The translations under genes were made by a program, and so were the position numbers. DNA of 64,000 nucleotides, taken from Companilactobacillus heilongjiangensis. GTDB taxonomy: Bacteria; Bacillota; Bacilli; Lactobacillales; Lactobacillaceae. The DNA lies in contig NZ_CP012559.1 of assembly GCF_000831645.3 (NCBI RefSeq), positions 2,604,001 through 2,668,000 of the forward strand, given 5' to 3'. The notes beneath the pieces are model-generated. The model was not told the origin of the DNA and did not search any database. It worked only from the letters and a program-made list of their open reading frames with translations. Shown piece after piece: positions 20,828-52,532 of this stretch. Numbering within the stretch: the first letter of the stretch is position 1; each line of letters opens with the position of its first letter.

Positions 20828-21022
20828 TTAACCGGAGGGGCTGGAAGTAATTAATTTCAGCAGTGAAAGTAGCGTTAGAGCAGCGATTTTCTGCTCTTAC
20901 ACTACTGACGCATTTTGAAATTCGCGTATTTTGCGAAGTTCAAAATCGAGGTTCGAGACCGCACTGTGGCTCGAACCGGTCTCACAGCAGAACTCCATTA
21001 CTGCCAGACCCGGAGGCCCCGC
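20828..21022 (+). repeat. Family A structured repeat, copy A1
   Basis: About 195 bp. An outer stem (CTGG.AGTAAT region with ATTACTGCCAG) encloses three internal hairpins. One is a variable hairpin with arms GTAG..AGAGCAG and CTGCTCT..CTAC. Another is a stem built from TTTTGAA and TTCAAAA. The third is a perfect 8-bp hairpin GGTTCGAG/CTCGAACC whose loop begins ACC and ends TGG. Flanks are CCGGAGG on both sides. Some outer-stem positions no longer pair, so this copy looks partly decayed. Confidence 0.8.
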
Positions 21023-21035
21023 CACTAAAAATATA

Positions 21036-21067
21036 TAAAAAAGACCGAAACTATCGTTTCAGTCTTT
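21036..21067 (-). terminator. Terminator after LCP-family gene
   Basis: On the minus strand AAAGACTGAAAC pairs with GTTTCGGTCTTTTTT, about 11 bp after the stop codon. Confidence 0.85.
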
Positions 21068-21077
21068 AGTCAAATCC

Positions 21078-22244
21078 TTATTCGGACGTTTGATTTCTTG
21101 TAAAGATTGTATAGTTTTGGTTTTGGTTCCCACTCTCAAAGGAGAAACCATTATCCTCATTCAATGTATTTAATCTTGTTTCTTCATTATCCAAATCTTC
21201 CTCGGATAAGCCTAATTGCTTCCTTAGTTTATTGGATGCACGTCGTAGTTCCTTAGAAGGAATTACTTCATAAGAAGAACCATTGATCATTGAGCCATAT
21301 CCTTGAACGTGATCAGAGCCGATACTCTTGGCCGCACCACGATAATTCAAGAACATTGATTGCATATCGCTAAAGCTCAAGTTAGTTGTCATTGAACTAG
21401 AAATACTATCCAACACTTTTTGATAACGTGTAAATGTCTTGGCACTCGCAGCACTCTTAATAATTGCTGTAATGACCTGACGTTGTCTTAATTGACGTCC
21501 ATAATCACCCTTTGGATCTTCGTAACGCATTCTTGAGTAATCAAGAGCTTGTTTACCGTTTAAATGCATCTTACCCTTCTTAAAATGGGATTCCTTTTGA
21601 CCGGTATCACCATAAGAAAAGCTAAATGGTACATCTACATCAACACCACCAACAGCATTAACAATCTGTGTCAATGAGTTGAAATCAACTTTAACATAAT
21701 AATCAATCGGTACATTCAAGAATTTCTCTGTTGTAGCAACAGCACTCTCTTCATTACCAATATTATAGGCTGAATTGATTTTTTGAATCTTTCTCGTATT
21801 ATTCGAGCTACTCTTCCAAATTTGAGCCATGGAATCTCTTGGAACAGACATCATCGTAGTTTTATTCGTATCCGGATTGACCGATACAATGATCATTGTA
21901 TCTGAATTACCACGATAATCCTTTTCAGAATCCCTGACACCATCGTCAGTTGTATCGACACCTAATAGAAGAATTGAGACAGGTTTCTTATCATTGATAC
22001 GAGTTGAAACTTTCTTACCATCCAAAGGCCTGTAAGTCTTACCCATAGAACTTTGGGTTTGGGCATATAGTCTAAATCCATAAGCACCCATGACGAAAAT
22101 CATAACTAGAAATACTAAACCTAGAATCTTCACAAATGGGCGTTTAATATTACCACCGTTATTAGAGGCTAAGGCACTGTTACGAGTTCGTTGCCGACGC
22201 TCTCTAGACATATTGTTTTTATTGTTTTTATTGTTGTTATCCAT
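21078..22244 (-). CDS. LytR-CpsA-Psr (LCP) family cell-wall glycopolymer ligase
   Basis: 388 residues. A short N-rich cytoplasmic head, one membrane anchor (about 36-55), then the extracellular LCP domain. Visible hallmarks are PVSILLLGVDTT, RGNSDTMIIVSVNPDTNK, TTMMSVPRDSM and ALDYSRMRYEDPKGDYGRQLRQRQVI, whose aspartates and arginines bind the polyprenyl-phosphate head group. LCP enzymes move teichoic acids or capsule from lipid carriers to peptidoglycan. A disordered tail rich in N, Q and E follows. RBS GGAG is about 8 nt before ATG 22244. It appears to form its own transcript. Confidence 0.9.
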   Translation of the reverse strand: MDNNNKNNKNNMSRERRQRTRNSALASNNGGNIKRPFVKILGLVFLVMIFVMGAYGFRLYAQTQSSMGKTYRPLDGKKVSTRINDKKPVSILLLGVDTTDDGVRDSEKDYRGNSDTMIIVSVNPDTNKTTMMSVPRDSMAQIWKSSSNNTRKIQKINSAYNIGNEESAVATTEKFLNVPIDYYVKVDFNSLTQIVNAVGGVDVDVPFSFSYGDTGQKESHFKKGKMHLNGKQALDYSRMRYEDPKGDYGRQLRQRQVITAIIKSAASAKTFTRYQKVLDSISSSMTTNLSFSDMQSMFLNYRGAAKSIGSDHVQGYGSMINGSSYEVIPSKELRRASNKLRKQLGLSEEDLDNEETRLNTLNEDNGFSFESGNQNQNYTIFTRNQTSE

Positions 22245-22404
22245 AAATAAACTCCGATTAATTTGCTATCTACGTTTCTAACAAATTCTCTCTATATTAT
22301 ATAGTAGATAGAATGCAATTATACAGCTTAATTCTACTGATTAAAAATCTTTCTGTAAAAGGCCTTGGTTCAACTGATGCACTAAACATTGAAAGCTTAG
22401 TATT

Positions 22405-22456
22405 TGTCTGCTGTTTCCAGGGCTGAGAACACGAATATTCTCAGCCCTTCCAACTA
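22405..22456. repeat. Miniature family A-like palindrome a2
   Basis: AGGGCTGAGAA (22419-22429) pairs with TTCTCAGCCCT (22438-22448), then CCAACTA, resembling the CCGACTAA end of family A. It is probably a decayed terminal stem. Apart from this and a3, the 588-bp divergent region 22245-22832 holds only AT-rich promoter sequence. Confidence 0.45.
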
Positions 22457-22630
22457 TTTTTTAGGATTAATAATCAAATTAAAGCTTCTCATTTTATTTT
22501 AATACCTTACTTATTGAAATTTCTAAACTGTTCAATGAATTTTAACATTAATAAATACATGTTAGCATCCCCAATATTATGATTGTTCAATAAGTTGATA
22601 ATTTAATCAAAAATCAATCAAAAAAATACA

Positions 22631-22668
22631 TTAGCCGGAGGCTGACATTACTGCCAGCCTCCGGCGGC
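22631..22668 (+). repeat. Miniature family A element a3
   Basis: It begins TTAGCCGGAGGCTG and ends CAGCCTCCGGCGGC, so both family A termini are intact and form a 10-bp perfect stem around a 10-nt loop. The whole interior of a full copy is missing. Confidence 0.75.
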
Positions 22669-22832
22669 CTTCCCAAACAATCTAAATTATATGTTTTTAA
22701 TACCACATGTCAATTTCATTAAAATAATTTTGTCAGAATATAAAGTCGGATATAATCAAAAAACTATCTTATTATTTTTAAGTTTTAGTTCCTAATTTCC
22801 TGTATAATCACCTTCGTAGGAGGATTTGAATA

Positions 22833-24284
22833 ATGCCAGATGCAAATAATGCAAAGACGTTCAGATGGTGGAATATTGCCTTACTAGGTTTTACCACTGT
22901 TTGGGGTCTTAATAACGTTATTAACAACTTTGCCAACCAAGGTTTAGCTGTTATAACTTCATGGATTTTGATCATGATTCTATACTTTGTCCCATACACT
23001 TTGATGGTTGGTCAATTGGGATCAGCCTTTCAAAATGCTGGCGGGGGTGTCAGTTCCTGGGTCAAAGCACTATCCAATAATAAGTTAGCTTACTTCGCTG
23101 CTTGGACTTATTGGGTTGTTCACGTTCCATACCTTGCTCAAAAACCACAAATTATCATGGTTAGCTTGAGTTGGTTATTTAAGGGTAATGGTTCATTTAT
23201 CAAAACTAGTTCCCCATTATTAGTTCAAGGGGCCAGTTTAATTATCTTTCTAGCTTTCGTTTGGTTAGCTAGTAAAGGTACTGCCACTCTAAATAATTTA
23301 GGTAGTATTGCCGGTATCGCTATGTTTACTATGTCAATGCTATTCATTATCTTAGGTGTCAGCGCTCCATTTATCACTCATGTGGCAATCGCTACACCAA
23401 ACATGACTGATATTCACACATATATACCGAAATTCGACTTTCAATACTTTACGACAATTTCTATGTTAGTCTTCGCCGTTGGTGGTTCTGAAAAGATTTC
23501 ACCATACGTTAACAAGACTAAGAATGCTTCCAAAGAATTCCCACTTGGTATGATTATCTTAGCTGTCATGGTTGCTGTTTCAGCCATTCTAGGATCATTT
23601 GCTATTGGTATGATTGTTAACTCTAACCATATTCCATCTGATTTGATGGCTAACGGTGCTTACCAAGCCTTCCAATTCTTAGGTAACAGTTTCCACGTTG
23701 GTAACTTGTTCGTTTGGGCTTTCGCGATTACTAATACAGTTGCTTCAGCCGCTGCCCTTGCTATTTCAATTGATGCTCCATTACGTATGCTTTTAGGTGA
23801 TGCCGATTCTAAATTCATCCCTAAGGCACTTTCAAAGAAAAACAAGCGTGGCGTAGCAATCAACGGTTACAAGATGACTGCCGTTCTTGTTTCTATCTTG
23901 ATTGTCGTTCCTGCTCTTGGTATCAACGGTATGAATGATCTATATAACTGGTTGTTGAACCTTAACTCAATCGTTATGCCTATGCGTTATCTATGGGTAT
24001 TCTTCGCATTCATGATGCTTTCAAAACATATCGAAAGTTTCCAATCAGATTATATGTTTGTTAAGAACAAATACGTTGGTTTCGGATTAGGTCTTTGGAC
24101 TTTCTTCCTAACAGCCTTCGCATGTATCTTAGGTATGGTTCCTAAGATGAATATGGCACAAGATCCATCATCATGGTGGTTCCAATTAGCACTTAACATC
24201 ATCACACCAATTGCTTTGATTACTCTTGGTTTGATTCTACCTGCTATTGCCAAACGTACTAATAAAGATTTAGACGAAGCTTAA
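22833..24284 (+). CDS. APC superfamily amino-acid permease / antiporter
   Basis: 483 residues with about 12 membrane helices. The N-terminus FRWWNIALLGFTTVWGLNNVINNFANQGLA and the GGGVSSW segment in helix 2 resemble the glutamate:GABA antiporter / YjeM branch of the APC superfamily. AVGGSEKISPYVNKTKN in the middle also fits. These import or exchange amino acids at the membrane, sometimes for acid resistance; the substrate here is unknown. RBS AGGAGG lies 9 nt upstream of ATG 22833, and a strong terminator follows. It is monocistronic, with no decarboxylase gene adjacent. Confidence 0.85.
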   Translation: MPDANNAKTFRWWNIALLGFTTVWGLNNVINNFANQGLAVITSWILIMILYFVPYTLMVGQLGSAFQNAGGGVSSWVKALSNNKLAYFAAWTYWVVHVPYLAQKPQIIMVSLSWLFKGNGSFIKTSSPLLVQGASLIIFLAFVWLASKGTATLNNLGSIAGIAMFTMSMLFIILGVSAPFITHVAIATPNMTDIHTYIPKFDFQYFTTISMLVFAVGGSEKISPYVNKTKNASKEFPLGMIILAVMVAVSAILGSFAIGMIVNSNHIPSDLMANGAYQAFQFLGNSFHVGNLFVWAFAITNTVASAAALAISIDAPLRMLLGDADSKFIPKALSKKNKRGVAINGYKMTAVLVSILIVVPALGINGMNDLYNWLLNLNSIVMPMRYLWVFFAFMMLSKHIESFQSDYMFVKNKYVGFGLGLWTFFLTAFACILGMVPKMNMAQDPSSWWFQLALNIITPIALITLGLILPAIAKRTNKDLDEA

Positions 24285-24314
24285 ACTTAATTGCCTCTCT
24301 GCACAGGTGATTTT

Positions 24315-24350
24315 ATAGGACCATCAGTTAATTCTGATGGTCCTATTTTT
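24315..24350 (+). terminator. Terminator after APC permease
   Basis: ATAGGACCATCAG pairs perfectly with CTGATGGTCCTAT across a 6-nt loop, followed by a T-run. Confidence 0.9.
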
Positions 24351-24364
24351 GTCTTTTAAAGCAT

Positions 24365-24543
24365 GCCGCTTGCGGATGCCAGTGATGGAGTCGCTATGAG
24401 GACCGAGCCGAGCCAAGGTCTCGTCTCTCGCTTTGAAGCCTTACCACAAAACGGTAAGTCTCCAAAGTCGCCCTGTGGTGTAATGGCTAAAGCCATTACA
24501 CCACCTCCATTGCTGACTCCATCACTGGCATCCGCAAGCTAAA
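24365..24543 (-). repeat. Family A structured repeat, copy A2
   Basis: About 179 bp, inverted relative to A3, 207 bp away. The outer stem CGGATGCCAGTGATGGAGTC pairs with its complement. Inner elements on the minus strand are GGTGGTGTAATGGC / GCCATTACACCAC, the stem CTTTGGAGACTTACC / GGTAAGGCTTCAAAG, and a loop ACCTTGG. The outer stem is unrelated in sequence to other copies but fully paired. Confidence 0.85.
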
Positions 24544-24660
24544 GTATTTTAAATACTCTGGACATATTAATAACTGAAGTCCTAACAATAGAGATAATAA
24601 TGTCCAAAAAATTATAGCAATTTTGATTCATTCACTCGTATTTAACCTATTAAATACAAA

Positions 24661-24693
24661 GAAGCCAGACCGTAATCCAAACAGTCTGACTTC
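24661..24693 (-). terminator. Probable terminator of PBP operon
   Basis: On the minus strand GAAGTCAGACTG pairs with CGGTCTGGCTTC (two wobbles), then CTTTG. The T-tail is short. It lies beyond repeat A3, about 260 bp past the PBP stop. Confidence 0.4.
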
Positions 24694-24750
24694 ATCAATA
24701 TCTACAATACATTTTTAATTCATACATTAAATCAACTAAAACTAAAACCC

Positions 24751-24933
24751 CAGCCACAGGTTGCCAGCAATTTCACCAGCAGTGAAAATAATATAATGAC
24801 GTCAGTCATTATATTATAGGGCGACTTGGAGACTTACCGGGTTGTGGTAAGGCTTCAAGTCGAGGTTCGAGACCGCTCTTTGGCTCGGACCGGTCCTCAC
24901 AGCAGGTGAAAATTGCTGGCAACCTGTGGCGGC
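24751..24933 (+). repeat. Family A structured repeat, copy A3
   Basis: About 183 bp. The outer stem CAGGTTGCCAGCAATTT pairs with its complement ending AACCTG. The second hairpin is replaced by an unrelated palindrome (ATAATATAATGAC / GTCATTATATTAT). The stem CTTGGAGACTTACC / GGTAAGGCTTCAAG, the hairpin GGTTCGAG / CTCGGACC and the core CACAGCAG are retained. It follows the PBP stop codon (convergent side). Confidence 0.85.
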
Positions 24934-24952
24934 ATCCTTCAATACACCAAAC

Positions 24953-27661
24953 CTAATCACTAGAACTGTCAAAGCTTGAAGATGAATCAGAAGAAGGCGT
25001 TGATGACGATGAAGAACTGGTTGAATTGCCATTGGCATCTATCTTGATGTCTGGCACATTGCCACCATAGCTTCTAATTTCGTTCATAATATCAACGAGT
25101 TTCTGCTTTTGATCAGCTTTATCTGAATCATCGTTCTTATAAGCATCCTTAACCTTCTGCAATTGTGAATTGTACTGTGGCATCAACTTATCGACCATTG
25201 ACTGACGTTTCTGAGCCCGTTCTGTTTCAATTGTTTCCTTCTCAGCCTCGTACTTCGCAACTTTCTTATTATCCTTAGCTGCTTGGAACATGGCCTGACT
25301 CATATTCAGATCCTTTTGTAATTCCAAAATCTGCTTATTGAAATCAATCTTGGCACTCTGGCGTTTAACATTAGCGTTGAGGTAACGAATCTTCTGCAAT
25401 TCACTCAACTTACTATTGTATTGAGACTCCTTAGTAATTGGTGACTCGTTATACTTATCGATGGCTTTTTGAACCTTATCTTCACGACTAAATTCTTCTT
25501 TCTTAGTCAAATGATAGATAATTCGATAATCGAGATTGTAAAGTCGGTTCGTATTCTTATCTTCTTGGTCGGTATTATATTTCGAAAAGTCGTTATCAAT
25601 AATATCTTGAATACTTGGCTTTTCATTGCTTGCCTTAACCGAGATATTGCCACCACTAACTGTGACAGTACTTGGTTTCTTGAAGTTAGTTTGCTTTTGC
25701 TTTGTATAATCGACCATATACTCACCCTCAGCCTTGAAAGCCTGCATCGTCAAAGCATCTTCACTCTGAGTCAAAGTAGATGGCACATCGTTACCAGTCC
25801 AGTTAGCAATCGTGAAATTAGGTGTCATCCCAACAAAATAGGAATCTTTCGTATCATCGGTCGTACCAGTTTTACCAGCCGTGTACTTATAGTTATCCAA
25901 TGCCGCTGCTTTACCCAGACCATCAGTAATAACGGATTGCATGGTATTGAGCATCATATAACTGGCATTCTTCGTATAAACGTCCTTTTTCATGTGCGTA
26001 TTCTGATAAATAAAACGATCATTGTCATTATCATAAATACTCGACAAATTACTTGGATGAATGAATTGCCCACCACGTGAGAATGAACTGTATGCGGAGG
26101 CCATTTCGGTCGTAGTTGTCCCATACTTGAATGAACCAATTGCTAAACGTGGCTCTTCTTTCTGTTCAGGGCTCAAACGAGCAAACTCCATTTTAACTAA
26201 GTCATCATAATAGGTGTGTTTAGTATCCGAAGCCGCTAATTTGTACGCAATTGTATTAATTGAGTTTTCCAAAGCATGACGCAAAGTATTGCTACCTGTA
26301 TAACCGCTGTACCAGTTATGAACTACTGGATTTCCGACAGCAGAATCGATTACGGTACTCTGAGGGAAATATCCACGTTCAAAAGCTGGAGCATAGGCAA
26401 CTATCGGCTTGGCTGTGGAACCAGGTTGACGATAACCACTTATCGCCCGATTAACTTGATCCCCGTTGGTTGTTCGTCCACCGACTATCGCTATAACGTC
26501 GCCAGTTTTGTTATCAACGACGGTACTTGATACTTGTGGCGCTAATTTTCCATGGACATCCCTACCTGTATAAGCCTTATACGTATTATTGACCAATTGC
26601 TCAATCTTATTTTGAACAGTTTCATCAATCGTTGTTCTAATCGTATAACCACCATCCATCAATTGACCATGAGCACGCTCGTATGCTTGTTGGTAACTAG
26701 TATTATAGGCGTTACGGTCAGCGTTATCCTTAAAATCATAACGCATCGTGAAGCCAGCTGACTTCATTAATTCCTCAGTCGCATTGAAGACGGCGTAGCT
26801 CAGCGCATAGTTATTCGAAACATTATTGTCATAACGCTTCTGATTAATCTTCAAACCTAATGGACGCTTACGTGCGGTCAAATAAGTCTTTTTGGAAATC
26901 AAACCACGTTGATGGAAAATATAGAGAATCATGTTACGGCGTTTTATTGTCCGTTGCGGTGCAGCTACTGGATCATAGTAAACTGGATTATTAGGGATGC
27001 CGACTAGCACAGCTAATTTATCAATTGATAAATCTTTTTGATCCTGTGAAAAATAGTAATCCGAGGCGGCACTGAATCCATAAGAACCATGTCCCATATA
27101 GACATCGTTGATATAGAATTCAAGAATCTGTTGCTTGGTAAATTTCTTCTCCAGTTGTTGGGCAATAACCATTTCTTTCAACTTACGCGTTAGATTCTGT
27201 GATTGATCCTGCAAAATAACATTCTTAACTAGTTGCTGCGTTAAGGTCGAACCACCTTCAGTCCGACGATGCAAAACAGTTGAAACGGTCGAACGCAGAA
27301 TACCATACAAATCGACACCATGATGAATGTAGAAACGTTGGTCCTCCACCGCGACTAATCCTTTGCTAATCTTGGGGTTAATGTCATTTATATCAGTATA
27401 ATTGGAACTCGACTGTGACAGTTTCTTGATTTCTTTACCGTTACGGTCATATATAACGGTTGAATTTTTAGGATGAAAGTCTGACTTCTTCAAACCCTGA
27501 CTGTATGAATAGCCATCCGCAATCGTATTTCTAATATCATAGCCATATTTCCACCAGAAAGCTCCGACACTCAAAACAATTAATAAAACGATTGTCAAAA
27601 GTATCCACGGCCATTTTTTTCTTTTTTTGATTAATCTGTGTTCCATTTTTTTCTTACGCAT
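24953..27661 (-). CDS. Class A penicillin-binding protein (glycosyltransferase-transpeptidase)
   Basis: 902 residues: cytoplasmic basic head, one membrane anchor (about 18-36), GT51 domain, transpeptidase domain, and an unusual tail. In the GT51 domain VAVEDQRFYIHHG holds the catalytic Glu, about E106, and EGGSTLTQQLVKN follows. In the transpeptidase domain SxxK is S415-T-A-K418, SxN is S467-I-N469 and KTG is K597-T-G599. The last 200 residues are charged and coiled-coil-like and end in a serine-rich stretch. It polymerises and cross-links peptidoglycan. All catalytic motifs are intact. It starts 9 bp after the unknown membrane protein at 27671-28966 and is surely co-transcribed with it. Confidence 0.9.
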   Translation of the reverse strand: MRKKKMEHRLIKKRKKWPWILLTIVLLIVLSVGAFWWKYGYDIRNTIADGYSYSQGLKKSDFHPKNSTVIYDRNGKEIKKLSQSSSNYTDINDINPKISKGLVAVEDQRFYIHHGVDLYGILRSTVSTVLHRRTEGGSTLTQQLVKNVILQDQSQNLTRKLKEMVIAQQLEKKFTKQQILEFYINDVYMGHGSYGFSAASDYYFSQDQKDLSIDKLAVLVGIPNNPVYYDPVAAPQRTIKRRNMILYIFHQRGLISKKTYLTARKRPLGLKINQKRYDNNVSNNYALSYAVFNATEELMKSAGFTMRYDFKDNADRNAYNTSYQQAYERAHGQLMDGGYTIRTTIDETVQNKIEQLVNNTYKAYTGRDVHGKLAPQVSSTVVDNKTGDVIAIVGGRTTNGDQVNRAISGYRQPGSTAKPIVAYAPAFERGYFPQSTVIDSAVGNPVVHNWYSGYTGSNTLRHALENSINTIAYKLAASDTKHTYYDDLVKMEFARLSPEQKEEPRLAIGSFKYGTTTTEMASAYSSFSRGGQFIHPSNLSSIYDNDNDRFIYQNTHMKKDVYTKNASYMMLNTMQSVITDGLGKAAALDNYKYTAGKTGTTDDTKDSYFVGMTPNFTIANWTGNDVPSTLTQSEDALTMQAFKAEGEYMVDYTKQKQTNFKKPSTVTVSGGNISVKASNEKPSIQDIIDNDFSKYNTDQEDKNTNRLYNLDYRIIYHLTKKEEFSREDKVQKAIDKYNESPITKESQYNSKLSELQKIRYLNANVKRQSAKIDFNKQILELQKDLNMSQAMFQAAKDNKKVAKYEAEKETIETERAQKRQSMVDKLMPQYNSQLQKVKDAYKNDDSDKADQKQKLVDIMNEIRSYGGNVPDIKIDANGNSTSSSSSSTPSSDSSSSFDSSSD

Positions 27662-29966: not shown

Positions 29967-29996
29967 TTTATTGAAGGTTTAATTAAGTAGCATAAG

Positions 29997-30177
29997 TTAG
30001 TTGGAAGAGTTGAGAGTATTCATCAGCAGCGAAAGTGGCGTTATTGCTTTAGCAATTACACCATCGGGCGTGTTGGAGACCTGCCAGTTTTGCAGGACTT
30101 CAACCGAGGTTCGAGACCGCATTTTGGCTCGAACCGTACCGTGCAGCAGATGAATACTCTCAACTCTGGAAACGGCC
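29997..30177 (+). repeat. Family A structured repeat, copy A4
   Basis: About 181 bp, starting 31 bp after the upstream stop codon. The outer stem AGTTGAGAGTATTCATC pairs with GATGAATACTCTCAACT perfectly. Internal hairpin GTGGCGTTATTGC / GCAATTACACCAT, stem TTGGAGACCTGCC / GCAGGACTTCAA, and perfect 8-bp hairpin GGTTCGAG / CTCGAACC. Best-preserved copy for reading the pairing. Confidence 0.9.
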
Positions 30178-30198
30178 AATTTCAAAAATTTTTCACTA

Positions 30199-39361: not shown

Positions 39362-39501
39362 GACTGTACACCTCCTTATGGTCTAATGGTCCCTTCCACT
39401 TGGAAAGGACAAGGAGCATAAATTAACTACATTTTATACTCACGAATGATAATTCTATCATAAGTTGTCTGTAATTACTAGGACTAATTCTATTGTAATT
39501 T

Positions 39502-39673
39502 GCCGTCTCCGGTTGGCAGAAATATAGTCCGCTATGGGACCGACGCGAGCCAAGGTCTCGCGCCTCGATTTTGAGCCGAAAAAGCGCGTCTCAAAACTCG
39601 TCCTGTGGTGTAATGGCTAAAGCCATAACGCCACCTCCATTGCTGGACTATCTTTCTGCCAACCTCCGACTAA
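39502..39673 (-). repeat. Family A structured repeat, copy A5
   Basis: About 172 bp, opposite in orientation to A6, 128 bp away. On the minus strand the outer stem TTGGCAGAAAGATAGTCC pairs with GGACTATATTTCTGCCAA. The core hairpin is GCGCGAG / CTCGCGT with loop ACCTTGG, a compensated version of GGTTCGAG / CTCGAACC. Ends are TTAGTCGGAGG and GGAGACGGC. Confidence 0.9.
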
Positions 39674-39801
39674 GTCTGAGGATTTTTTGTAGATATCTAT
39701 CATACATAATCAAATTTCAATTCATAGCTGCCAGCATGACTAAGCAATGACTATGTATACAAAGCCACAAAATAAAGCTAATACCAACATTCAAAGTCAA
39801 A

Positions 39802-39978
39802 TTAGCCGGAGGGTTTGAGAGAATCTATCCGCCGTGCAAGTGGCGTTATGGCTTTAGCCATTACACCACCGGCGTCTTTGGAGACTTGCTGTTTTTGCAA
39901 GGCTTCAAAGCGAGGCGTGAGACCTTGGCTCACACCGGTCGGCACAGCAGATAGAATTCTCTCAAACCCGGAGGCGGC
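39802..39978 (+). repeat. Family A structured repeat, copy A6
   Basis: About 177 bp. The outer stem TTTGAGAGAAT.CTATC pairs with GATAGAATTCTCTCAAA. Hairpin GTGGCGTTATGGC / GCCATTACACCAC, stem TTTGGAGACTTGC / GCAAGGCTTCAAA, core hairpin GGCGTGAG / CTCACACC with loop ACCTTGG. Ends are TTAGCCGGAGG and CCGGAGGCGGC. Confidence 0.9.
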
Positions 39979-39981
39979 AAC

Positions 39982-40060
39982 AAAAAAACCGTTTCTGCCT
40001 GACACGCATCCCTTAATTGGGCTACATATCTAAAGTACGCAGAAACGATTAGTTTTTTTT
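39982..40060 (-). terminator. Terminator after gyrA with long loop
   Basis: On the minus strand CGTTTCTGC (40047-40039) pairs with GCAGAAACG (39998-39990) and is followed by a T-run. The loop of about 40 nt is unusually large and may fold further. Confidence 0.65.
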
Positions 40061-40071
40061 ACTATTTATTA

Positions 40072-42645
40072 TTATTCATTGTCTGAATCTGAATTATCTG
40101 AATCTTCTGAACTATCAGAAGTATCAGAATCTACTGAATCAGTTGAATTTTCTTCTGATGAATCATTTGTTGAATCATCAGTCTTGTCACTGTTATCAGT
40201 ATCTTCGGAATCTTCTGTTTCGTCTTCAGCAATTTTTGCCATTGTTGAAACGATTGAATCGTCATCGACTTTAATCAATCTGACACCAAGTGTTGCACGA
40301 CCTGTTTGTGAGACGCTTTGAACGCCGAAACGAATCATAACACCTTTATCAGTGATCAACATGATATCTTCATCACCGTCAACAACTGTCAAACCAGCAA
40401 TTGGTCCATTTTTCTCAGTTACGTTAGCAGTCTTGATACCTTTACCACCACGACCCTTGATTGGGTATTCAGTTACGGCAGTTCTCTTACCATAACCATT
40501 TTCTGAGATGGTCAAAATTTCTTGGCTAGCTTCAGCAATTGATGAGCCAACGACATAGTCTTCTTCACGCAACTTAATACCACGGACACCGGCAGCTGTT
40601 CTTCCCATTGGGCGAACGTCGCTTTCTCTAAATGTTACGGCATAACCTTTGTGAGTTCCGATGATAATAACTTTACTGCCATCAGTTAAGAAGGCATTGT
40701 TCAATTCATCTTCATCACGCAAAGTAATTGCACGCAAACCAGAGTGTCTGATATTGGCAAAGTCACTAACTGGAGTCCGTTTAACGGTTCCGTATTTAGT
40801 AACGAAGAACAAGAATGAATTATCGGGATCAACATCTTTATCGACATTGATGACAGTTTCAATCTTTTCGCCCTTCTCGATATTCAAGAGGTTGATAATT
40901 GGAATTCCCTTGGCTGTACGCCCATATTCAGGAACTTCATACCCTTTGATTCGATAAACTTTACCAGCGTTTGTAAAGAACAAGAGACGGTCATGTGTTG
41001 ATGTATAAATCATCTGTTCGATGAAATCATCATCATGAATCCCCATTCCTTGAACACCACGGCCACCACGATTTTGAACACGAAATTCATCCGCAGACAA
41101 ACGTTTGATATAACCATTGTGTGTCAAAACGACTAAGATATTTTCTTCTTCAATTAAATCTTCATCTTCGATGTTAGCAACTTCACTAGCACGAATTTCA
41201 GTTCTTCTTGGATCGCCGAATTTATCTTGAATATCAAGCAATTCGTCATAAATAATCTTGTCGACACGTTCTGGTTTAGCCAAAATATCTTCGAAGTCCG
41301 CAATTTTAACTAAGAGTTCTTGATACTCAGCTTCAACTTTTTCACGTTCCAAACCAGTCAAACGAACCAGACGCATATCTAGAATAGCTTGTGATTGTTT
41401 GTCTGAAAGCTTGAATTTGTCCATCAAAGTTTGCTTAGCAATCGCTGAAGTCTGAGAACCACGGATAATACTGATAATCTCATCGATGTGATCCAAGGCA
41501 ATTCTCAATCCTTCAAGGATATGAGCTCTAGCTTTGGCACGTTTCAATTCGAATTCAGTTCTTCTTCTGATAACAACTTCTTGATGCTTCAAGTATTCAA
41601 CTAGGACACCTTTAAGTGTGAAGACCTTAGGAGTCTTACCCACGATAGCAACCATGTTGATACCATATGAAATTTGTAATGATGTCAATTTATAAAGGTT
41701 ATTCAAAACAACTGAAGCACTGACGTCACGACGAATATCGATAACGATACGCATACCTTCACGGTCAGATTCATCGTTCAAATCAGTGATACCTTCAAGT
41801 TTTTTCTCACGAGCTAGTTCAGCAATACGTTCAACCAACTTAGCCTTGTTGACCATGTATGGAAGTTCAGTCACGATGATTTGTTCAGCGCCACTCTTCT
41901 TCGTTACAACGTCAATTTTGGCACGGAGAATGATTGTACCTTTACCAGTTTCATAAGCTTTTCTGATACCTGAACGGCCCATGATGATACCACCAGTAGG
42001 AAAGTCAGGTCCGGGAATAACTTTCATCAAATCAGCTACAGTTGCATCCTTATTTCTCATCAAAATATGCAATGCATCAATAACTTCTTTCAAGTTATGA
42101 GCGGGGATATTAGTTGTCATACCAACGGCGATACCAGTTGCACCATTAACTAACAAGTTAGGGAAACGAGCTGGTAAAACCATTGGTTCTTTTTCTTCAC
42201 CATCATAATTAGGAACAAGGTCAACGGTATCTTTGTTGATATCACGCAACATTTCAACCGCCATCTTGCTCATACGTGCTTCGGTATAACGCATAGCAGC
42301 GGGCGGATCACCATCGATTGATCCAAAGTTTCCGTGTCCATCAACCAATGGGTAACGGTAACTGAAATCCTGAGCCATTCTAACCATTGATTCGTAGATA
42401 GCTGAATCCCCGTGGGGGTGATACTTACCCATGATATCCCCAACGAAACGGGCACTCTTCTTGTATGGTTTGTCAGGTGTAACACCTAACTCATTCATAC
42501 CGTAAAGGATACGACGATGAACGGGTTTGAGGCCATCACGAACATCAGGTAACGCACGTGACACGATAACACTAGCAGCGTAGTCAACAAAGGAATTCTT
42601 CATGACTTCTGTCAAATTAACATTTTCTATTCTATGCTCTGCCAT
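40072..42645 (-). CDS. gyrA: DNA gyrase subunit A
   Basis: 857 residues. The catalytic tyrosine lies in [11 protein letters not shown], in the usual position of about Y124. The quinolone region reads [21 protein letters not shown], with the wild-type-like Ser (about 84) and Glu (about 88). The C-terminal beta-propeller contains the GyrA box ([10 protein letters not shown]). A roughly 50-residue tail made almost only of S, D, E, T and N ends the protein. Together with GyrB it introduces negative supercoils. 16 bp separate it from gyrB. Confidence 0.96.
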
Positions 42646-42661
42646 TAAATTGCCATCCTCC

Positions 42662-44611
42662 CTAATAATCTACTTCTGCATAACGTGCATTTGCTTCGAT
42701 GAACTCACGTCTAGGTTCAACTTTGTCACCCATCAACATTGAGAAGACTGCGTTAGCTTCAATGGCATCATCGAGGTTAACACGGTCCAATCTTCTCTTG
42801 TCAGGATCCATAGTTGTTTCCCATAATTGATCAGCATCCATTTCACCAAGACCCTTGTAACGTTGAATCTTTGGTTCTGGTTTTGGTGCTAATTGTTCAA
42901 CAAATTCATCTTTTTCTTTATCAGTATCAAAGTACTGCATCATCTTACCTTGGCGAACTTGATACAAAGGTGGCTTAGCGATATAAACATAGCCTGCATC
43001 AACGATTGGACGCATGTATCTGTAAAGCAACGTCAAAAGCAATGTTCTGATATGGGCACCATCGACATCGGCATCGGTCATGATAATAACCTTGTGATAT
43101 CTAGCCTTAGAAATATCGAAATCTTCACCAAAACCTGTTCCCATCGCTGTGAACAAAGTTCTGATTTCTTCATTAGCCAAGATTTTGTCCATTGAAGCTT
43201 TTTCAACGTTCAAAATCTTACCTCTAATAGGCAAAATAGCTTGTGTTAAACGTGAACGACCAGTCTTAGCAGAACCACCGGCTGAATCACCCTCGACGAT
43301 AAATAATTCAGAAATTGCAGGATCTTTACTTGAGTTGTCAGCCAACTTACCAGGTAAATTACTGATTTCCAAACCATTTTGCTTTCTAGTTACTTCACGA
43401 GCACGCTTAGCAGCTAGACGAGCTTTGGTAGCTAAAGAACCCTTTTCAATAATCTTCTTAGCAACGTTAGGATTTTCCATCAAGAACTTCATGAAATGTT
43501 CACTGAATAGACGATCAGTGATAGTTCTAGCGTCACTATTACCAAGTTTTGTCTTTGTTTGACCTTCAAATTGTGGGTCCGGGTGCTTGATAGAAACGAC
43601 CGCAGTCATCCCTTCACGAACATCTTCACCAGATAATTTGTCGGTATCTTTTAATAATTTGTTTTTGTGAGCGTAATCGTTAATAACACGTGTCAAAGCT
43701 GTCTTGAAACCAACTTCGTGAGTACCACCTTCATAGGTGTGAATGTTATTAGCGAAAGTCATCAAGTTAGTGTGATATTCATCAGTATATTGGAGGGCAA
43801 CTTCAACAGTAATACCGTCTTGAACACCTTCAAGATAAATAGGATCGTCGAAAAGGACTTCCTTGTCTTTATCCATGAATTCAACGTAACTCTTAATTCC
43901 ACCTTCATAGTGGAAAACTAATTTTTCAGCTGTATCAGCTCTCTTATCAGTGAAAGTTAACTTCAAGCCTTTATTTAAGAAAGCTAGTTCACGAATTCTA
44001 GTTGTTAAAACTTTGTCATCGTAAACTGTAGTTTCGGTAAAAATATCTGGATCTGGCACGAAATGGACTTTAGTTCCATGTTTAAATTCACCAGCATCGC
44101 CGAGGACATGCATTGCATCCTTAACCTTGCCACGTTCGAAGTCGATACCGTAACGTTTGCCGGCACGAACAACTTCAACCTGCAATTGACTACTCAACGC
44201 ATTAACAACGGAAGCACCAACACCATGCAAACCACCAGATACTTTATAACCGCCACCGCCGAATTTACCACCAGCGTGCAAAATTGTATAAACCGTTTCA
44301 AGAGCAGGCTTACCAGTCTTCTTTTGAATATCAACTGGAATACCACGTCCATCATCGGTAACAGTAATGGAGTTATCAGGTTCAACAGTAACCTCGATCT
44401 TTGTAGCGAAACCAGCTAAAGCTTCATCAATACCATTATCAATAATTTCCCAAACAAGATGGTGTAAACCTTGTTTACTAGTAGAACCGATATACATACC
44501 AGGACGCTTACGAACAGCCTCTAGTCCTTCAAGAACTTGAATTTGACTCGCGTCATATTCTTCGACTTTTTCTTCTTTCTTTTCCAGCTCAGCTTTTCTG
44601 TCTTCAGCCAT
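42662..44611 (-). CDS. gyrB: DNA gyrase subunit B
   Basis: 649 residues, full length. The GHKL ATPase domain shows [22 protein letters not shown] and [14 protein letters not shown]. The transducer follows, then TOPRIM with the [13 protein letters not shown] and [13 protein letters not shown] metal-binding motifs. The C-terminus RYAEVDY contacts GyrA. It overlaps recF by one base (TAATG junction) and belongs to the dnaA-side operon running leftward. Confidence 0.97.
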
Positions 44612-46173: not shown

Positions 46174-46184
46174 GCGTTTTCACA

Positions 46185-47479: not shown

Positions 47480-48856
47480 TTAATTTCTAAGGTCATCCTT
47501 CAGTTCATTAACGGACCGTTTCAAATCGTCATCTTTAATGAGTAATTCGGATATTTTATCACACGAATGCATGACTGTCGTATGATCTTTACCGCCAAAT
47601 TCCATTCCGATTTGTGGAAGTGATCTGTCGGTCAACTCACGAGAGAGATACATGGCGATTTGTCGAGGAACGACAATGGTTTTGACACGTTTCTTCCCTT
47701 TTAAGTCTTGGATCGTGACACGGTAATATTTAGCAACTTTATTTTGGATTTTCGCGATGGAAATACCGTTTTTGTCGTTAGATAATTTATAGATTTTTAG
47801 CGCATCGGCGGCGACTGACTTAGTAATATCAGTGTTTTTGGTCGTTGAATAAGCTTGAACTCGAATCAAAGCACCCTCAAGTTCACGAACATTGGTATCA
47901 ATTTGAGCGGCAATATAAGAAAGCGTGTCATCAGGAATTTCAAGGTGTTCTGCTTTAGCTTTATTGCGTAAGATAGCAATTCTAGTTTCGAGATCAGGTG
48001 CGGTGATGTCTGCTGACAAACCTTGTGTAAATCTGGAAACTAATCGTTGTTGTAATTTAGGGATTTCGTTTGGTAAACGGTCCGATGTCATTACGATCTG
48101 CTTACCATTTTCGTAGAGCTCATTAAAAGTATGGAAGAATTCTTCTTGAGTACCCTCTTTTTCAGCGAAGAATTGAATGTCATCTATTAATAGTAGATCG
48201 ACGTTTCGATACTCTTGTCTGAAATCGTCTTGAGTCCGCATCTGGATTGAGTTGATGAAGTCATTGGCAAAGGTTTCACTCGTAACATATTTAACTTTAG
48301 CTAGTGGATCAAGTTTGATCATTTGATGTCCGATTGCTTGCATCAAGTGAGTCTTACCTAAACCAACGCCACCATAAATAAAGAGTGGATTGTAGACCCC
48401 GCCGGGATCTTCAGCTGCAGCTAAGGCTGCGGCATGTGCCATCTGATTTCCGCTACCAACGATAAATGAAGAAAAAGTATATTTTGGATTCAAATGTGAA
48501 TTATGGAAAATATGCTTTGGTTGAGCAGTTTCAGTTGTCTGTTCAACTTGAGGAGCGATTGTTTGCTCCTCTTTTTTGTTGTTTTCTTCATCATTTTCGA
48601 TGATTGGATTCAATTCAGTTCCATTTAGTTCATATGAATATATAGCAATTTTTTCGGTGTAATTTCTTTCCCAATAGTCTTTATGTAGTTTTGTTGGGAC
48701 CGAAATATAAATGTTATTGCCATCGATATATAAAGGATTGGCACTTTCAACCCAAGTTGAATAACTGACAGAAGTTAATTGAGATCTAAGCTTATTTGTA
48801 AAATAGTCCCAAAATTCGGTTAGTTTTGGATCAGTTGAGTTATTTATATTTTGCAA
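47480..48856 (-). CDS. dnaA: Chromosomal replication initiator DnaA
   Basis: 458 residues. N-terminal oligomerisation domain (FWDYFTNKLRSQLTSVSYSTWVESA), variable acidic linker, AAA+ domain with Walker A GGVGLGKTHL (about 162-170) and Walker B LLIDDIQFF, then the DnaA-box-binding helix-turn-helix near the end (FGGKDHTTVMHSCDKI). Both flanks carry DnaA boxes, the bipartite origin arrangement of Firmicutes. Confidence 0.97.
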   Translation of the reverse strand: MQNINNSTDPKLTEFWDYFTNKLRSQLTSVSYSTWVESANPLYIDGNNIYISVPTKLHKDYWERNYTEKIAIYSYELNGTELNPIIENDEENNKKEEQTIAPQVEQTTETAQPKHIFHNSHLNPKYTFSSFIVGSGNQMAHAAALAAAEDPGGVYNPLFIYGGVGLGKTHLMQAIGHQMIKLDPLAKVKYVTSETFANDFINSIQMRTQDDFRQEYRNVDLLLIDDIQFFAEKEGTQEEFFHTFNELYENGKQIVMTSDRLPNEIPKLQQRLVSRFTQGLSADITAPDLETRIAILRNKAKAEHLEIPDDTLSYIAAQIDTNVRELEGALIRVQAYSTTKNTDITKSVAADALKIYKLSNDKNGISIAKIQNKVAKYYRVTIQDLKGKKRVKTIVVPRQIAMYLSRELTDRSLPQIGMEFGGKDHTTVMHSCDKISELLIKDDDLKRSVNELKDDLRN

Positions 48857-49358
48857 TTATTTCCCCCCAATCTGTGGTTGTGGATAATTTTTTCCCTAAA
48901 ATGACAGAGTATAGTTTATCATTCTATCAAAGAGTTTTCCACAGAACACACGTTTAAATTTAGAAGAAATAACAACAGGTATTTTCTAAATACACAGGTT
49001 TGTGGAAAAAGGTTGTTGATAAAAACTATCCACACAGTTATCCACAATTAACACAACTTCAAAAGCCCTATTACCAGCTGTTACACCTAAAAAACAAGAA
49101 TTCAACAACACCTGTGGAAAACTAAAACACAGCAAAATAATCCGTTGGAAAAGTTTGTTCATACTCCTGTGGAAAAAACAAGTTGTAAAATTGCTCCACA
49201 AATTATCCACAATTAAAAATGCGAAAAACTTTCTAAAAAAAACTTGCTTTTATAGGAAATTAGTTATTTAAAAAGTTGGCATAACATGATATTATAGTTA
49301 AGCAATTGTCTGAAGAAGTGAATATTTTAAATATAACGAAGAGTCAGGAGGTTTATTG
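48857..49358. other. oriC: oriC DnaA-box cluster between dnaA and rpmH
   Basis: About 500 bp, no gene. DnaA boxes on either strand: TGTGGATAA 48880-48888; TTTTCCACA 48935-48943; TGTGGAAAA 49001-49009; CTATCCACA 49025-49033; TTATCCACA 49037-49045; TGTGGAAAA 49113-49121; TGTGGAAAA 49169-49177; TTATCCACA 49203-49211. It is the incA/B-like subregion and also holds the divergent dnaA and rpmH promoters; TATTATAGT near 49290 is a likely rpmH -10. Confidence 0.9.
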
Positions 49359-49499
49359 ATGACTACAAAGAGAACTTATCAACCAAAGAAGCGTCACCGT
49401 GAACGCGTCCATGGTTTCATGAAAAGAATGAGCACAAGTAATGGTCGCAAAGTTTTAGCAAGACGCCGTAAAAAGGGTCGCAAAGTATTATCAGCTTAG
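49359..49499 (+). CDS. rpmH: Ribosomal protein bL34
   Basis: 46 residues, [20 protein letters not shown] with the basic C-terminus [12 protein letters not shown], unmistakably bL34. CAGGAGG lies 7 nt before the ATG. It heads the rightward rpmH-rnpA-yidC-mnmE-mnmG series facing away from dnaA. Confidence 0.97.
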
Positions 49500-49507
49500 T
49501 TTTGAAG

Positions 49508-49538
49508 GATCACTAAACAATTTGGTGGTCTTTTTTTA
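49508..49538 (+). terminator. Hairpin with T-run between rpmH and rnpA
   Basis: GATCAC pairs with GTGGTC (one G-T wobble) and seven T follow. Probably a partial terminator that lowers rnpA relative to rpmH. Confidence 0.65.
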
Positions 49539-49566
49539 TTACAGAACGAGAGTAGACTGGTGACAT

Positions 49567-49908
49567 ATGAGAAAAAGTTATCGAATAAAAAAAGAAAATG
49601 AGTTTCAATATGTCTATTCCAAGGGAAAATCCGTAGCAAACCGTAATTTTGTTTTGTACACGATGCCTAAAGAGAAGCAAAAGCATTTTCGTGTCGGAAT
49701 TTCTGTCGGAAAGAAAGTTTCACATACTGCAGTCGGACGTAATCGTATTAAAAGATACATCCGCCAATCACTTTTGGAATTGAAGCCTGAAATTCCTCAA
49801 GAATTGGATTTCTTGATCATTGCAAGAAAACCGGCGGTAGATTTAGATATGTTTGAATCCAAGAAAAATATTGTACATTTATTGAAATTAGGTAAAGTAT
49901 TAAATTAG
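49567..49908 (+). CDS. rnpA: Ribonuclease P protein component
   Basis: 113 residues, basic. [31 protein letters not shown] plus [28 protein letters not shown] contains the RNR motif that binds the RNA subunit during tRNA 5' maturation. Conserved neighbour of rpmH and yidC. Confidence 0.96.
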
Positions 49909-49941
49909 GGTACAAAATATTAATTAACTATAGGTGCAAAA

Positions 49942-50784
49942 GTGAATAAGAAAAGCTTAAAGAAATACATAGGTGTTGCTCTTTTACTTAGTGTTGTCTT
50001 GGTTCTAGCTGGATGTTCAAACCTAAATGAACCAATTACTAGTCACAGTAGTGGATTCTGGGATCACTATATTTTATATAGTTTCTCTCAATTCATTCTT
50101 TGGTTAGCTTCATTGGTTCACAACAGTTATGGTTGGGCAATCATTATCTTCACAATTATTATTAGAGTTATTCTGTTGCCACTTAACTGGTTCCAAATCA
50201 GAAGTATGAACAAGCAGATGAAGATTCAGCCGCAAATGCAGGCCCTTCAGAAGAAGTATTCAGCTAAAGATACGGATACACAACAGAAGCTACGTGAAGA
50301 GACACAGAAGCTATATAGTGAGGCTGGAGTGAACCCAGTTGCTGGATGTTTACCATTAGTTGTTCAGTTGCCTGTTATGTTCGCCCTCTATCAAGCCATT
50401 TATAAGACCACACAATTGCGTGATGGTACATTCTTATGGATGCAACTTGGTAAAGCCGATCCATATTACATCATGGCTATCTTGGCAGCGGTATTTACTT
50501 TCTTAAGTACATACATTTCAAGCTACTCACAGCCAACACAAAATGCGACGACAAAGATCATGACTTGGGTCATGCCAATCTTTATCTTCGTACCAGCATT
50601 AACATTCCCATCAGCTATTACAATTTATTGGGTTATCACTAATGCGTTCCAAGTTCTTCAGACATTGGCTTTCCAAAACCCATTCAAGTATCGTCGTGAA
50701 CAACGCGAAGCTGAAGAGGCTGAGAAAGAAAAAGAACGTCGTCTTAGAAAAGCTAAGAAGCGTGTCTATAAAAATCGTAAATAA
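49942..50784 (+). CDS. yidC: Membrane protein insertase YidC
   Basis: 280 residues from GTG 49942. The lipoprotein signal ends in VLAGC (lipobox), giving a lipid-anchored mature form as in the Firmicute SpoIIIJ/YidC1 group. Five hydrophobic segments follow. The substrate groove includes the conserved Arg in IIRVILLPLNWFQIRSMNKQM, and NPVAGCLPLVVQLPVMFALYQAI is conserved. The tail is basic and coiled. It inserts membrane proteins with or without SecYEG. The gene khpB (jag), often directly after yidC, is missing here. Confidence 0.95.
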   Translation: MNKKSLKKYIGVALLLSVVLVLAGCSNLNEPITSHSSGFWDHYILYSFSQFILWLASLVHNSYGWAIIIFTIIIRVILLPLNWFQIRSMNKQMKIQPQMQALQKKYSAKDTDTQQKLREETQKLYSEAGVNPVAGCLPLVVQLPVMFALYQAIYKTTQLRDGTFLWMQLGKADPYYIMAILAAVFTFLSTYISSYSQPTQNATTKIMTWVMPIFIFVPALTFPSAITIYWVITNAFQVLQTLAFQNPFKYRREQREAEEAEKEKERRLRKAKKRVYKNRK

Positions 50785-50856
50785 TTGACAATCGTAAAAA
50801 ATGTCGTTAAGATGTTTTAGAAATTGTTCATATATTTTATATATAGAAAAGTAGTC

Positions 50857-50900
50857 AAGGTGCTTTTCCGTCACTAAGTGGCGGATTATGCACTTTTTTT
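50857..50900 (+). terminator. Terminator after yidC
   Basis: AAGGTGC pairs with GCACTTT, closing an inner CCGTCAC/GTGGCGG stem, followed by a T-run. The first in-frame ATG of the mnmE reading frame (50901) lies at its end, which argues for the later start at 50931. Confidence 0.75.
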
Positions 50901-50930
50901 ATGCTCAAAAATCGAGAAAGGGAGCTTATT

Positions 50931-52319
50931 ATGCCAAGTTCAGTAACTGAATATGACACGATAGCAGCTATCTCAACTCCTCCTGGGGAAGGTGCCATTT
51001 CCATCGTGCGTCTGTCCGGAGATCAAGCTGTTGAAGTTGCTATGAAAATTTTTAAAGGTCGTGATTTGACTAAAGTTGCCAGTCACACCATAAATTACGG
51101 ACACATCATTGATCCAGCTGACGGTTCATTAGTCGATGAGGTCATGGTCTCAGTAATGTTGGCACCAAAGACTTTCACCCGCGAGGATGTTGTTGAAATT
51201 AATACCCATGGGGGTATAGTTGCAACGAATAAAGTTCTCCAACTATTGTTAGGTTACGGTGCTCGTATGGCCGAACCAGGTGAGTTTACAAAACGTGCCT
51301 TCTTAAACGGTCGAATTGATTTAACACAAGCCGAATCAGTTATGGATTTGATCCGTGCGAAAACTGATAAAGCTATGCAAGTGGCCGTCAATCAATTGGA
51401 TGGTAATTTACATCATTTAATCAGTAATTTACGTCAAGAAATCCTCGATTCCTTGGCTCAAGTAGAAGTTAACATCGATTATCCAGAATATGATACTGAT
51501 CAGATGACAACTAAATTGTTATTAGAAAAAGCTCGACTAGTTAGTGGCAAAATCGACAGTCTATTGAAGACAGCTGACAGTGGGGAAATCCTTCAACACG
51601 GTTTAGCTACAGCGATTGTTGGGAAACCTAACGTTGGTAAATCAAGTTTATTGAATCGTCTTTTAGATGAGGAAAAAGCTATTGTAACTGATGTTGCCGG
51701 AACGACCCGTGATGTCGTTGAACAGTACATCAATATTGACGGTGTGCCTTTGAAGTTGATCGATACAGCCGGTATCCGTGATACTGACGATAAGGTCGAA
51801 AAAATAGGTGTTGAACGTTCTAAACAAGCCTTGAACGGTGCGGACTTAGTAATCCTTGTATTGGATTCAAGTCGTGAACTAGAGGATGACGATATTGAGT
51901 TATTGGACGCAACTGCAGATAAGAAAAGAATCGTTATTTTTAACAAGAATGATTTGATGCCCGTTATAACGCCGAACTCAGTCGTGCAATTAAAAGCTGA
52001 CGATATTATCTTGCAAACTTCAGCCATCAAGAATGATGGTATTGAAACTATTAAAGATACGATCAGTAAGATTTTTAACTCCGGAATTGAAGATAACAGC
52101 AGTAACGTGATTATTACGAGTGCTCGTCAAGCTGGCTTGCTCCGTAAGGCTAAAAATAGCCTCAACGACGTTATTTCTGGAATTGAAGCAGGAATGCCTA
52201 TCGACCTTGTACAAATCGATATGACAGCTTGCTGGGACACTCTCGGTGAAATTACTGGTGAAAGTTATGCGGACGAATTGATTACACAATTGTTCTCGCA
52301 ATTCTGTTTAGGAAAATAA
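50931..52319 (+). CDS. mnmE: tRNA modification GTPase MnmE
   Basis: 462 residues from ATG 50931 with AAAGGGAG about 7 nt upstream. N-terminal tetrahydrofolate-binding domain ([21 protein letters not shown]), helical domain, inserted G domain and the C-terminal FCLGK tip whose cysteine is catalytic. The G domain shows [10 protein letters not shown] about 231-240, [15 protein letters not shown] and NKND. With MnmG it installs the (carboxymethyl)aminomethyl group at U34 of certain tRNAs. It is followed by mnmG after a repeat-filled gap. Confidence 0.96.
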
Positions 52320-52340
52320 CGTATTGTGCTAGTTAAGTAT

Positions 52341-52532
52341 CCCGTCTACAGAGCTGGAAAATATTCTCTAGCTGTGCGGACCGGTCCGAGCCAAAGTACG
52401 GTCTCGAACCTCGGTTTGAAGCCTTGACATAATTCGTCAAGTCTCCAAACACGCCCGGTAGCAAAAAGACGGGTGGTCCCGTCCTTTTACTACTTTCACA
52501 GCACACAAATATTTTCCAGCTCTTCCGACTAA
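52341..52532 (-). repeat. Family A structured repeat, copy A7
   Basis: About 192 bp between mnmE and mnmG. On the minus strand the outer stem AGAGCTGGAAAATATT pairs with AATATTTTCCAGCTCT perfectly. The second hairpin has a GC-rich variant (AAAAGGACGGGACC / ACCCGTCTTTTT), with stem TTTGGAGACTTGAC / GTCAAGGCTTCAAA and core hairpin GGTTCGAG / CTCGGACC. Ends TTAGTCGGA and AGACGGG. Confidence 0.9.

Follow-up and report, generated by a model that had tools for sequence, protein, structure and literature searches.

Folded intergenic repeats in Companilactobacillus heilongjiangensis: a dispersed and possibly mobile element family

Seven intergenic sequences of ~180 bp, which vary in their letters but share one folded plan, lie in a 64,000-nucleotide stretch of the Companilactobacillus heilongjiangensis genome (positions 2,604,001–2,668,000 of one 2,790,548-base contig; the whole stretch is called the window here, and the genome G000). 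What are these elements, and in which molecule does their fold matter? A first-pass annotation had described the seven copies and suggested a mobile structured element or an undescribed regulatory RNA. We found this observation to be correct, yet understated, as the seven copies are part of a genome-wide family; the head-to-head inverted pairing of copies and their spread through the genome had been overlooked. We put the probability at about 0.52 that the copies form a dispersed family of non-autonomous mobile DNA elements whose working form is a folded single strand, similar to the repetitive extragenic palindromes (REP/REPIN) but far larger.

Seven window copies of a genome-wide family

Copies were located with an nhmmer profile of the element family, which recovered all seven at the positions annotated before. 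The outer stem, the second hairpin, the GGAGACTT/AAGGCTTC stem, the fourth hairpin and the end motifs are present as described earlier. That the copies are non-coding was judged from the open reading frame (ORF) list only, and that no transposase is nearby from this list and Pfam searches of 10 window proteins, mostly copy-flanking. The copies and the units containing them are as follows.

20564–20646, minus strand: degenerate left arm of pair A, which retains both outer-stem arms and has lost the core; two weak nhmmer pieces (model 166–206 and 5–45, E 0.056 and 2.9)
20829–21016, plus strand: copy 1, a complete element that forms the right arm of pair A (nhmmer E 2.6e-42)
20564–21030, no strand assigned: inserted unit of pair A (left arm without core, then the spacer and a full right arm), vacant in several relatives
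24364–24542, minus strand: copy 2, left arm of pair B (nhmmer E 6.9e-40)
24751–24934, plus strand: copy 3, right arm of pair B (nhmmer E 3.7e-40)
29997–30176, plus strand: copy 4, single (nhmmer profile)
39494–39982, no strand assigned: unit of pair D, between gyrA (Pfam) and an rpsF-like gene (by eye), vacant in stretch L012
39501–39673, minus strand: copy 5, left arm of pair D (nhmmer E 4.9e-42)
39802–39979, plus strand: copy 6, right arm of pair D (nhmmer profile)
52341–52532, minus strand: copy 7, full element within a terminal inverted repeat (TIR) unit (nhmmer E 9.7e-39)
52319–52619, minus strand: TIR unit enclosing copy 7, with the short terminal inverted repeats ACGTATTGTGCTAGTT... and TATGCATGATGTTAGTT...

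Conserved fold and covariation

From sequence reading and alignments, the plan runs 5' to 3' as AAATAAAYTA-GYC-[GGA]-P1 (~20 bp)-GCnGTG-P2-GGRCG-P3-CGAG-P4 and continues after P4 as GGTCC-CACnGC-P1'-[GGA]-GRC-GGCA. The outer stem P1 follows a base of GYC/GRC and an internal loop of GGA/GGA, with the A-rich AAATAAAYTAG ahead. Among 217 distinct full copies (taken from 245 matches in four species; 28 partial or identical ones were left out), a T.T mismatch occurs within P2 in 192 and an A.G mismatch within P3 in 195.

We measured covariation on 30 copies from the window, its own genome and the stretches L009 and L024, using the RNAalifold structure of 54 pairs. As controls, the 3' letters were re-dealt among copies (500 shuffles) or the partners were slid along. 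Both sides had changed in 41 of the 54 pairs, compared with 28.1 in the shuffles, none of which reached 41. Pairing over the 54 pairs was 97.2%, against 77.9% with shuffled partners and 35–39% with slid partners; the latter contrast is inflated, since the structure was derived from the very sequences scored. The covariation score was 0.545 versus 0.188 in controls, and no shuffle reached any of the five measures. The P1-arm sequences of two random copies differ by 42%, yet mismatched or gapped outer-stem positions averaged 2.38 per copy versus 8.70 with mixed partners.

The check on covariation proposed in the first-pass annotation, performed here by counting, gave a strong signal, and related copies were found elsewhere. 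Rfam gave no match in the window outside rRNA at the gathering score; pair D had none even up to E 5, nor did 12 distant loci. Both the covariation and the strand-specific wobble given below support the proposed selection on folded RNA or single-stranded DNA.

Strand and molecule

In the outward strand, G.T exceeded A.C by 22:1 at the base of P1, 69:1 at the junction, 44:14 in P2 and 114:9 in P3 (counts on the 217 copies, excluding several P4 columns and two junction columns). With both neighbouring genes antisense to the element the ratio was 58:6, and with both sense it was 61:10; the mixed contexts gave 64:6 and 41:3, and the stretch ends 25:0. As the bias is alike in sense and antisense contexts, host mRNA is unlikely to be the target of selection. 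The candidates left are single-stranded DNA and an RNA made by the element itself, of which we favour DNA.

The pairing G is preceded by A (1.00), T (0.83) and C or T (0.94), that is, by YTAG. Beyond this A-rich YTAG motif, the 217 copies showed no positioned promoter-like signal within 80 bp upstream, and no conserved T-run was found downstream of them. The missing promoter and the indifference of the strand bias to neighbouring gene direction both bear on the regulatory RNA proposed earlier. This part of the proposal was neither strengthened nor dismissed, while its mobile-element part is supported by the copy number, distribution and empty sites described below.

Head-to-head pairs

The usual form is two copies head to head, with their 5' ends facing and a spacer of 71–414 bp. 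In an even-spaced sample of twelve own-genome stretches (234 kb, two of them shortened against overlap), 15 of 17 neighbours in the −+ order were less than 450 bp apart, and none of the 13 in the +− order. A larger sample gave 78/92 and 0/73; its stretches were chosen mostly around element matches, and the identical stretches L009 and L081 were counted once. The −+ order prevails in tandem, convergent and divergent gaps alike, and pairs were seen at two of 20 distant loci (L104 and L105).

Several explanations of the pairs were examined and rejected. Duplication of one arm into its mate as a palindrome was rejected since mates are no more alike than non-mates, and left and right end types since mates fall into subfamilies at random. 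A common spacer was sought among 60 spacers, which gave 21 pairwise matches of 27–118 bp, mostly of TIR-unit sequence (not individually checked). As a transposase within the pair we considered a 348-aa ORF in the spacers of L057 and L068 (100% identical); it has its own ends and, by eye, looks like an IS30-type insertion. No further ORF of at least 80 aa recurs among the 12 wide −+ gaps examined. We have also given up, as unsupported, the notion that pairs outside TIR units form a defined 'type I' majority.

Insertion and TIR units

A comparative check for empty sites, also proposed earlier, located them in L009, L010, L011, L012, L014 and genome G006. The aligned flanks of pair A meet at 20563|21031 in L010, L011 and L014, and at most 5 bases from the unit ends in L013 and L015. 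The site of pair D (39494–39982) is vacant in L012, whose flanks meet at 699|698. The copy 4 site is vacant in L009 (29972|30190; 29973–30189 absent), and the same site holds a pair in L024. G006 is vacant at the sites of a single copy (L073 9785–10117) and of a pair (L073 4353–4908). These empty sites in relatives show that the element inserted. A model scan of the syntenic loci of 25 more distant relatives found one diverged copy only, in L015. This copy of the fold belongs to C. crustorum and lies at the pair B site (L015 12789–12878).

Some copies lie in ~300-bp TIR units with ACGCRTGGTGCTAGTT ends. Among the 14 units with both ends recognised, 7 of which have a reduced core, 8 were flanked by an 8–9-bp target duplication with at most one mismatch (5 perfect), compared with 1 of 182 mixed pairs. 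The window unit at 52319–52619 has no target duplication remaining, and one unit in L009 occupies a site vacant in both the window and L024. Left TIR ends gave 116 pattern matches in the whole genome versus 58 for the reversed control; relative to ~570 copies (see below), they are a minority feature. A full-length transposase partner was sought in 15 stretches around such ends, and none was found. A solitary TIR end (CCAATATGCATGGTGCTAGTTGATAA, reverse strand), with no element adjoining, is present at window 353–389. At about L160 1238–1340 there is a ~95-bp TIR unit with a perfect 9-bp target duplication, from which the element is wholly gone; it was perhaps lost between flanking direct repeats.

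We also considered insertion targeted to terminators. A crude hairpin finder gave no enrichment beside copies (62/216 upstream and 74/216 downstream), and the idea was dropped.

Abundance and distribution

The model search of the own genome returned at least 150 copies. The 234-kb sample contained 48, of which 42 were near full length, corresponding to about 570 per genome and 3.5% of its bases. With stricter filters, matches were present in 22 of 41 related genomes (20/25 within the genus, 2/16 outside), and an order-wide scan with such filters, scoring 8 candidates per genome, found matches at E 1e-4 in 31 of 395 genomes, which belong to 10 of the 80 genera sampled. By eye, distant copies preserve the plan, frequently without P4. 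A single copy is found in each of eight genomes of one genus in another family; two more genomes of this genus, G027 and G035, had no match in the scan of related genomes. In five genomes of that genus (L086–L090) the flanks of the lone copy are alike, and it was apparently inherited vertically. The L086 copy is flanked by ORFs resembling infB and rbfA, and the genus is probably Streptococcus.

Searches by blastn with one-copy queries gave no match in plasmids or phages (one distant copy was also compared with phages). Among 75 viral contigs sharing a 15-mer, one had a weak partial match, and none contained a 30-base P2 pattern. No such repeat is named in the literature listings searched, which were covered mostly at listing level with subscription papers outside the scope; the structured repeat appears to be undescribed so far.

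Guest elements at fixed points of the fold

Two kinds of mobile element use the repeat as an insertion site.

L064, L065, L167, L257, L258, L259; sense with the element: elements carrying a group II intron guest at a shared insertion point
L267–L272; two species: IS110-type guests, at the same point of the repeat

Seven reverse transcriptase matches occur in G000. At six of these loci the intron sits at one point right after P4, in the sense of the element, and the site in the six elements reads P4-CCGNNCCGCG|GTGCG...CTCGAT|CARCAG. Three introns that were compared are 98.9–99.7% identical. Group II intron calls on L257 were RF02001, RF01998 and RF00029 from Rfam and TIGR04416 from NCBIfam; the three RF models were also found on L258 and L261, and two of these on L260. 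The seventh locus, L260, has a terminator-like hairpin on its 5' flank and the 3' part of an element on its 3' flank, as if produced by recombination between two intron sites. In other genomes, the introns L263–L265 (G003, G009 and G004, respectively) follow terminator-like sequence by eye, and the G006 intron L261 follows an antisense P2 hairpin. No intron ends were recognised in L262 and L266 with the motifs used.

The insertion sites of group IIC introns are terminators and attC, where a hairpin in the DNA target takes the place of one recognition site (PMC4424553, PMC7923331). The guest group II intron of the six copies has become specialised on a single point of the repeat, comparably to the IIC-attC introns on attC.

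The second guest, a DEDD/IS110-type element, lies at a single point between P3 and P4 in all four G000 copies and both G001 copies. The elements of the two genomes are 76% identical, and G015 has a weak, sub-threshold IS110 match. Members of the IS110/IS1111 group are likewise described at fixed points in REP and attC (PMC1525189, PMC8450116, PMC11187229).

Evolution in place

For six positional matches between G000 and G006, ranked among 17 G006 copies, the positional partner was the nearest relative in the core in none and in the outer stem in two. The outer stem of the window copy at 39802 is a reciprocal best match with G006 (0.69; rank 1/17 and 1/167), and its core is the worst of 17. This pattern points to cores that would have been converted between copies while the outer stem was inherited. 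In the comparison with L024, which is nearer than G006, copy 3 ranks first of 33 in both outer stem and core, and its L024 ortholog preserves the stem through paired changes. Copy 4 ranks third and tenth. As copy 2 ranks twenty-first in both parts, this arm was exchanged.

An amino-acid permease gene between repeat copies is inverted in L024 (12716–15456) relative to window 22718–24945. The inversion, with one arm of pair B replaced, is as expected of recombination between repeats.

Other features of the window

The replication origin is probably near window 49 kb, because an ORF at 47480–48856 (minus strand) resembles dnaA by eye and gyrB/gyrA lie at 40075–44611 (Pfam). The window penicillin-binding protein (Pfam) shares 96% identity with a locus of Companilactobacillus huachuanensis and 93% with one of C. 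nantensis. At window 125–280 there is a different structured intergenic repeat with a long hairpin inside an outer stem (CATGGTCAGCTTTCGA ... AAAGCTATGTTTTGTTG); a similar repeat adjoins the penicillin-binding-protein gene in L012.

Discussion

The following course of events would account for these results. One strand folds into the long outer stem P1 followed by hairpins P2, P3 and P4. A trans-acting enzyme, possibly gone from several genomes by now, would have recognised and moved this folded strand. Persisting copies would then have been reshuffled, the cores by gene conversion between copies, and the outer stem would perhaps be maintained by one arm templating its partner. Other mobile elements have come to use the fold as a place to insert. 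The data show the fold and the strand that forms it, the habit of pairing, the insertion, the number and spread of copies, and the fixed sites taken by an intron and an IS; the single-stranded DNA form, the mobiliser in trans, the conversion of cores and the templating of arms are inferred.

A number of observations weigh against this proposal. None of the enzymes that we considered as the mobiliser follows the copies. The Y1/HUH transposase (PF01797) is absent from G002, G006 and G009, each with at least 83 copies, and present in G007, which has none; G000 has two Y1 genes. Reverse transcriptase (RVT_1) is absent from G001, G002, G005 and G010 (57 or at least 83 copies), and IS110 is missing from most copy-rich genomes. 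As the three do not track copy number, the mobiliser would be some enzyme beyond these or one that has been lost. Core similarity is 0.740 between mates and 0.753 between non-mates (n = 48), which movement of whole units would not predict unless the copies were reshuffled later. Close pairs taken as units have a target duplication in 4 of 69 cases versus 4.3% by chance in mixed pairs (the set spans any subfamily and includes pairs with one arm inside a TIR unit). Among the TIR units, duplications flank five of the seven whose core is reduced and three of the seven that hold a full element, and four of the five perfect duplications belong to core-reduced units; because core-less units still carry duplications, the fold is either dispensable for them or was lost after insertion. 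Single copies have no leading/lagging strand bias (31 versus 39, p = 0.40). The wobble counts are not independent events, because the excess is concentrated in single columns, which contribute 100 of the 114 G.T in P3 and 67 of the 69 at the junction. Over the whole outer stem G.T about equals A.C (53:52; 41:24 in its outer 12 bp), a weak bias that fits arm-to-arm templating or symmetric decay. Finally, the sole hint of a IIC subclass for the guest intron is its insertion after hairpins, so this assignment is suggested only.

The one-strand excess of G.T over A.C would also be expected if each copy, or a few source copies, produced a structured noncoding RNA that folds and is selected, and the multi-branched plan with its conserved mismatches is RNA-like. 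Such an RNA is hard to reconcile with the lack of both a positioned promoter and a downstream T-run, with hundreds of copies in every gene context among which the bias is unchanged, and with the lack of an Rfam match; we regard it as unlikely. The ACGCRTGGTGCTAGTT ends and the duplications at 8 of 14 TIR units, together with the core-less versions that carry duplications (one of ~95 bp), are what ordinary miniature inverted-repeat transposable elements moved by a DDE transposase would leave, the fold being a passenger. This we consider distinctly improbable: recognition of duplex ends leaves the covariation and the strand-specific wobble unexplained, close pairs as units lack duplications, the left TIR ends fall far below the number of copies, and no transposase gene was seen between TIR ends in 15 stretches.

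Least probable to us is that each copy is kept by selection because it serves the host, through a 3'-end, supercoiling or insulation function. The elements are absent at the syntenic loci of 24 of the 25 more distant relatives and, under stricter filters, from 5 of the 25 genomes of the genus, and terminators are not enriched beside them. Nevertheless, positional orthologs of G000 and G006 preserve the fold by eye despite different letters, and the elements are intergenic with some preference for convergent gaps, of which they occupy 35 of 78, versus 92 of 292 gaps in tandem and 19 of 72 in divergent order (a tally on crude ORF calls, with one stretch counted twice). Returning to the folded, mobile single strand, the bolder claim that it forms a new class of single-stranded-DNA mobile elements, multi-helix and small-RNA-sized, with an enzyme other than Y1/RAYT, rewriting of arms and dedicated intron and insertion sequence (IS) parasites, is one that we hold only tentatively, as a doubtful but real prospect.

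In this densely packed bacterial genome, a single structured repeat makes up several per cent of the sequence, and the numbers of copies and species suffice for a direct study of selection on folded DNA. The homing intron and the IS are natural probes of fold formation in the chromosome, and for research on programmable IS110 recombinases the repeats provide a family of naturally occurring targets in lactobacilli. Should a mobiliser come to light that is not a Y1 enzyme, single-strand DNA mobility would gain a further mechanism.

Among known systems, the IS200/IS605-derived PATE share with the element a folded single strand and the lack of target duplication. They differ in that several copy-rich genomes here are without a Y1 transposase, and in the inverted pairs. 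The families bcr1, Efa-1, Lac-1, RUP, BOX and other structured interspersed repeats presumably differ in plan, pairing and sequence. Like the element, bcr1 (Bacillus cereus group), Efa-1, Lac-1 (L. johnsonii), RUP and BOX have a conserved fold and gram-positive hosts, and several of these families are 100–200 bp long (PMC2267715).

The likeness to REP/REPIN-RAYT of Pseudomonas and E. coli extends to the hundreds of copies outside genes, their arrangement as inverted doublets, the compensatory changes and a four-nucleotide tag at one end, which is YTAG in the element and GTAG in REP (PMC3116915, PMC3733652, PMC8450116), and REP is also a fixed-site target of IS110-type elements (PMC1525189, PMC8450116). 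However, the element has ~180 bp and four helices, whereas REP is a palindrome of 20–40 bp; its copy number is not tracked by any Y1 gene, its host belongs to the Lactobacillales and its mates are dissimilar. We have not filed it as REP/REPIN, because on testing we found neither the GTAG tag nor a RAYT in every copy-rich genome. Unlike integron attC, it has a multi-branched fold, and no cassettes were seen. It nevertheless resembles attC in that structure is kept over varying sequence, one strand folds, and hairpin-seeking group IIC introns and IS1111-type elements make use of the site (PMC7923331, PMC11187229).

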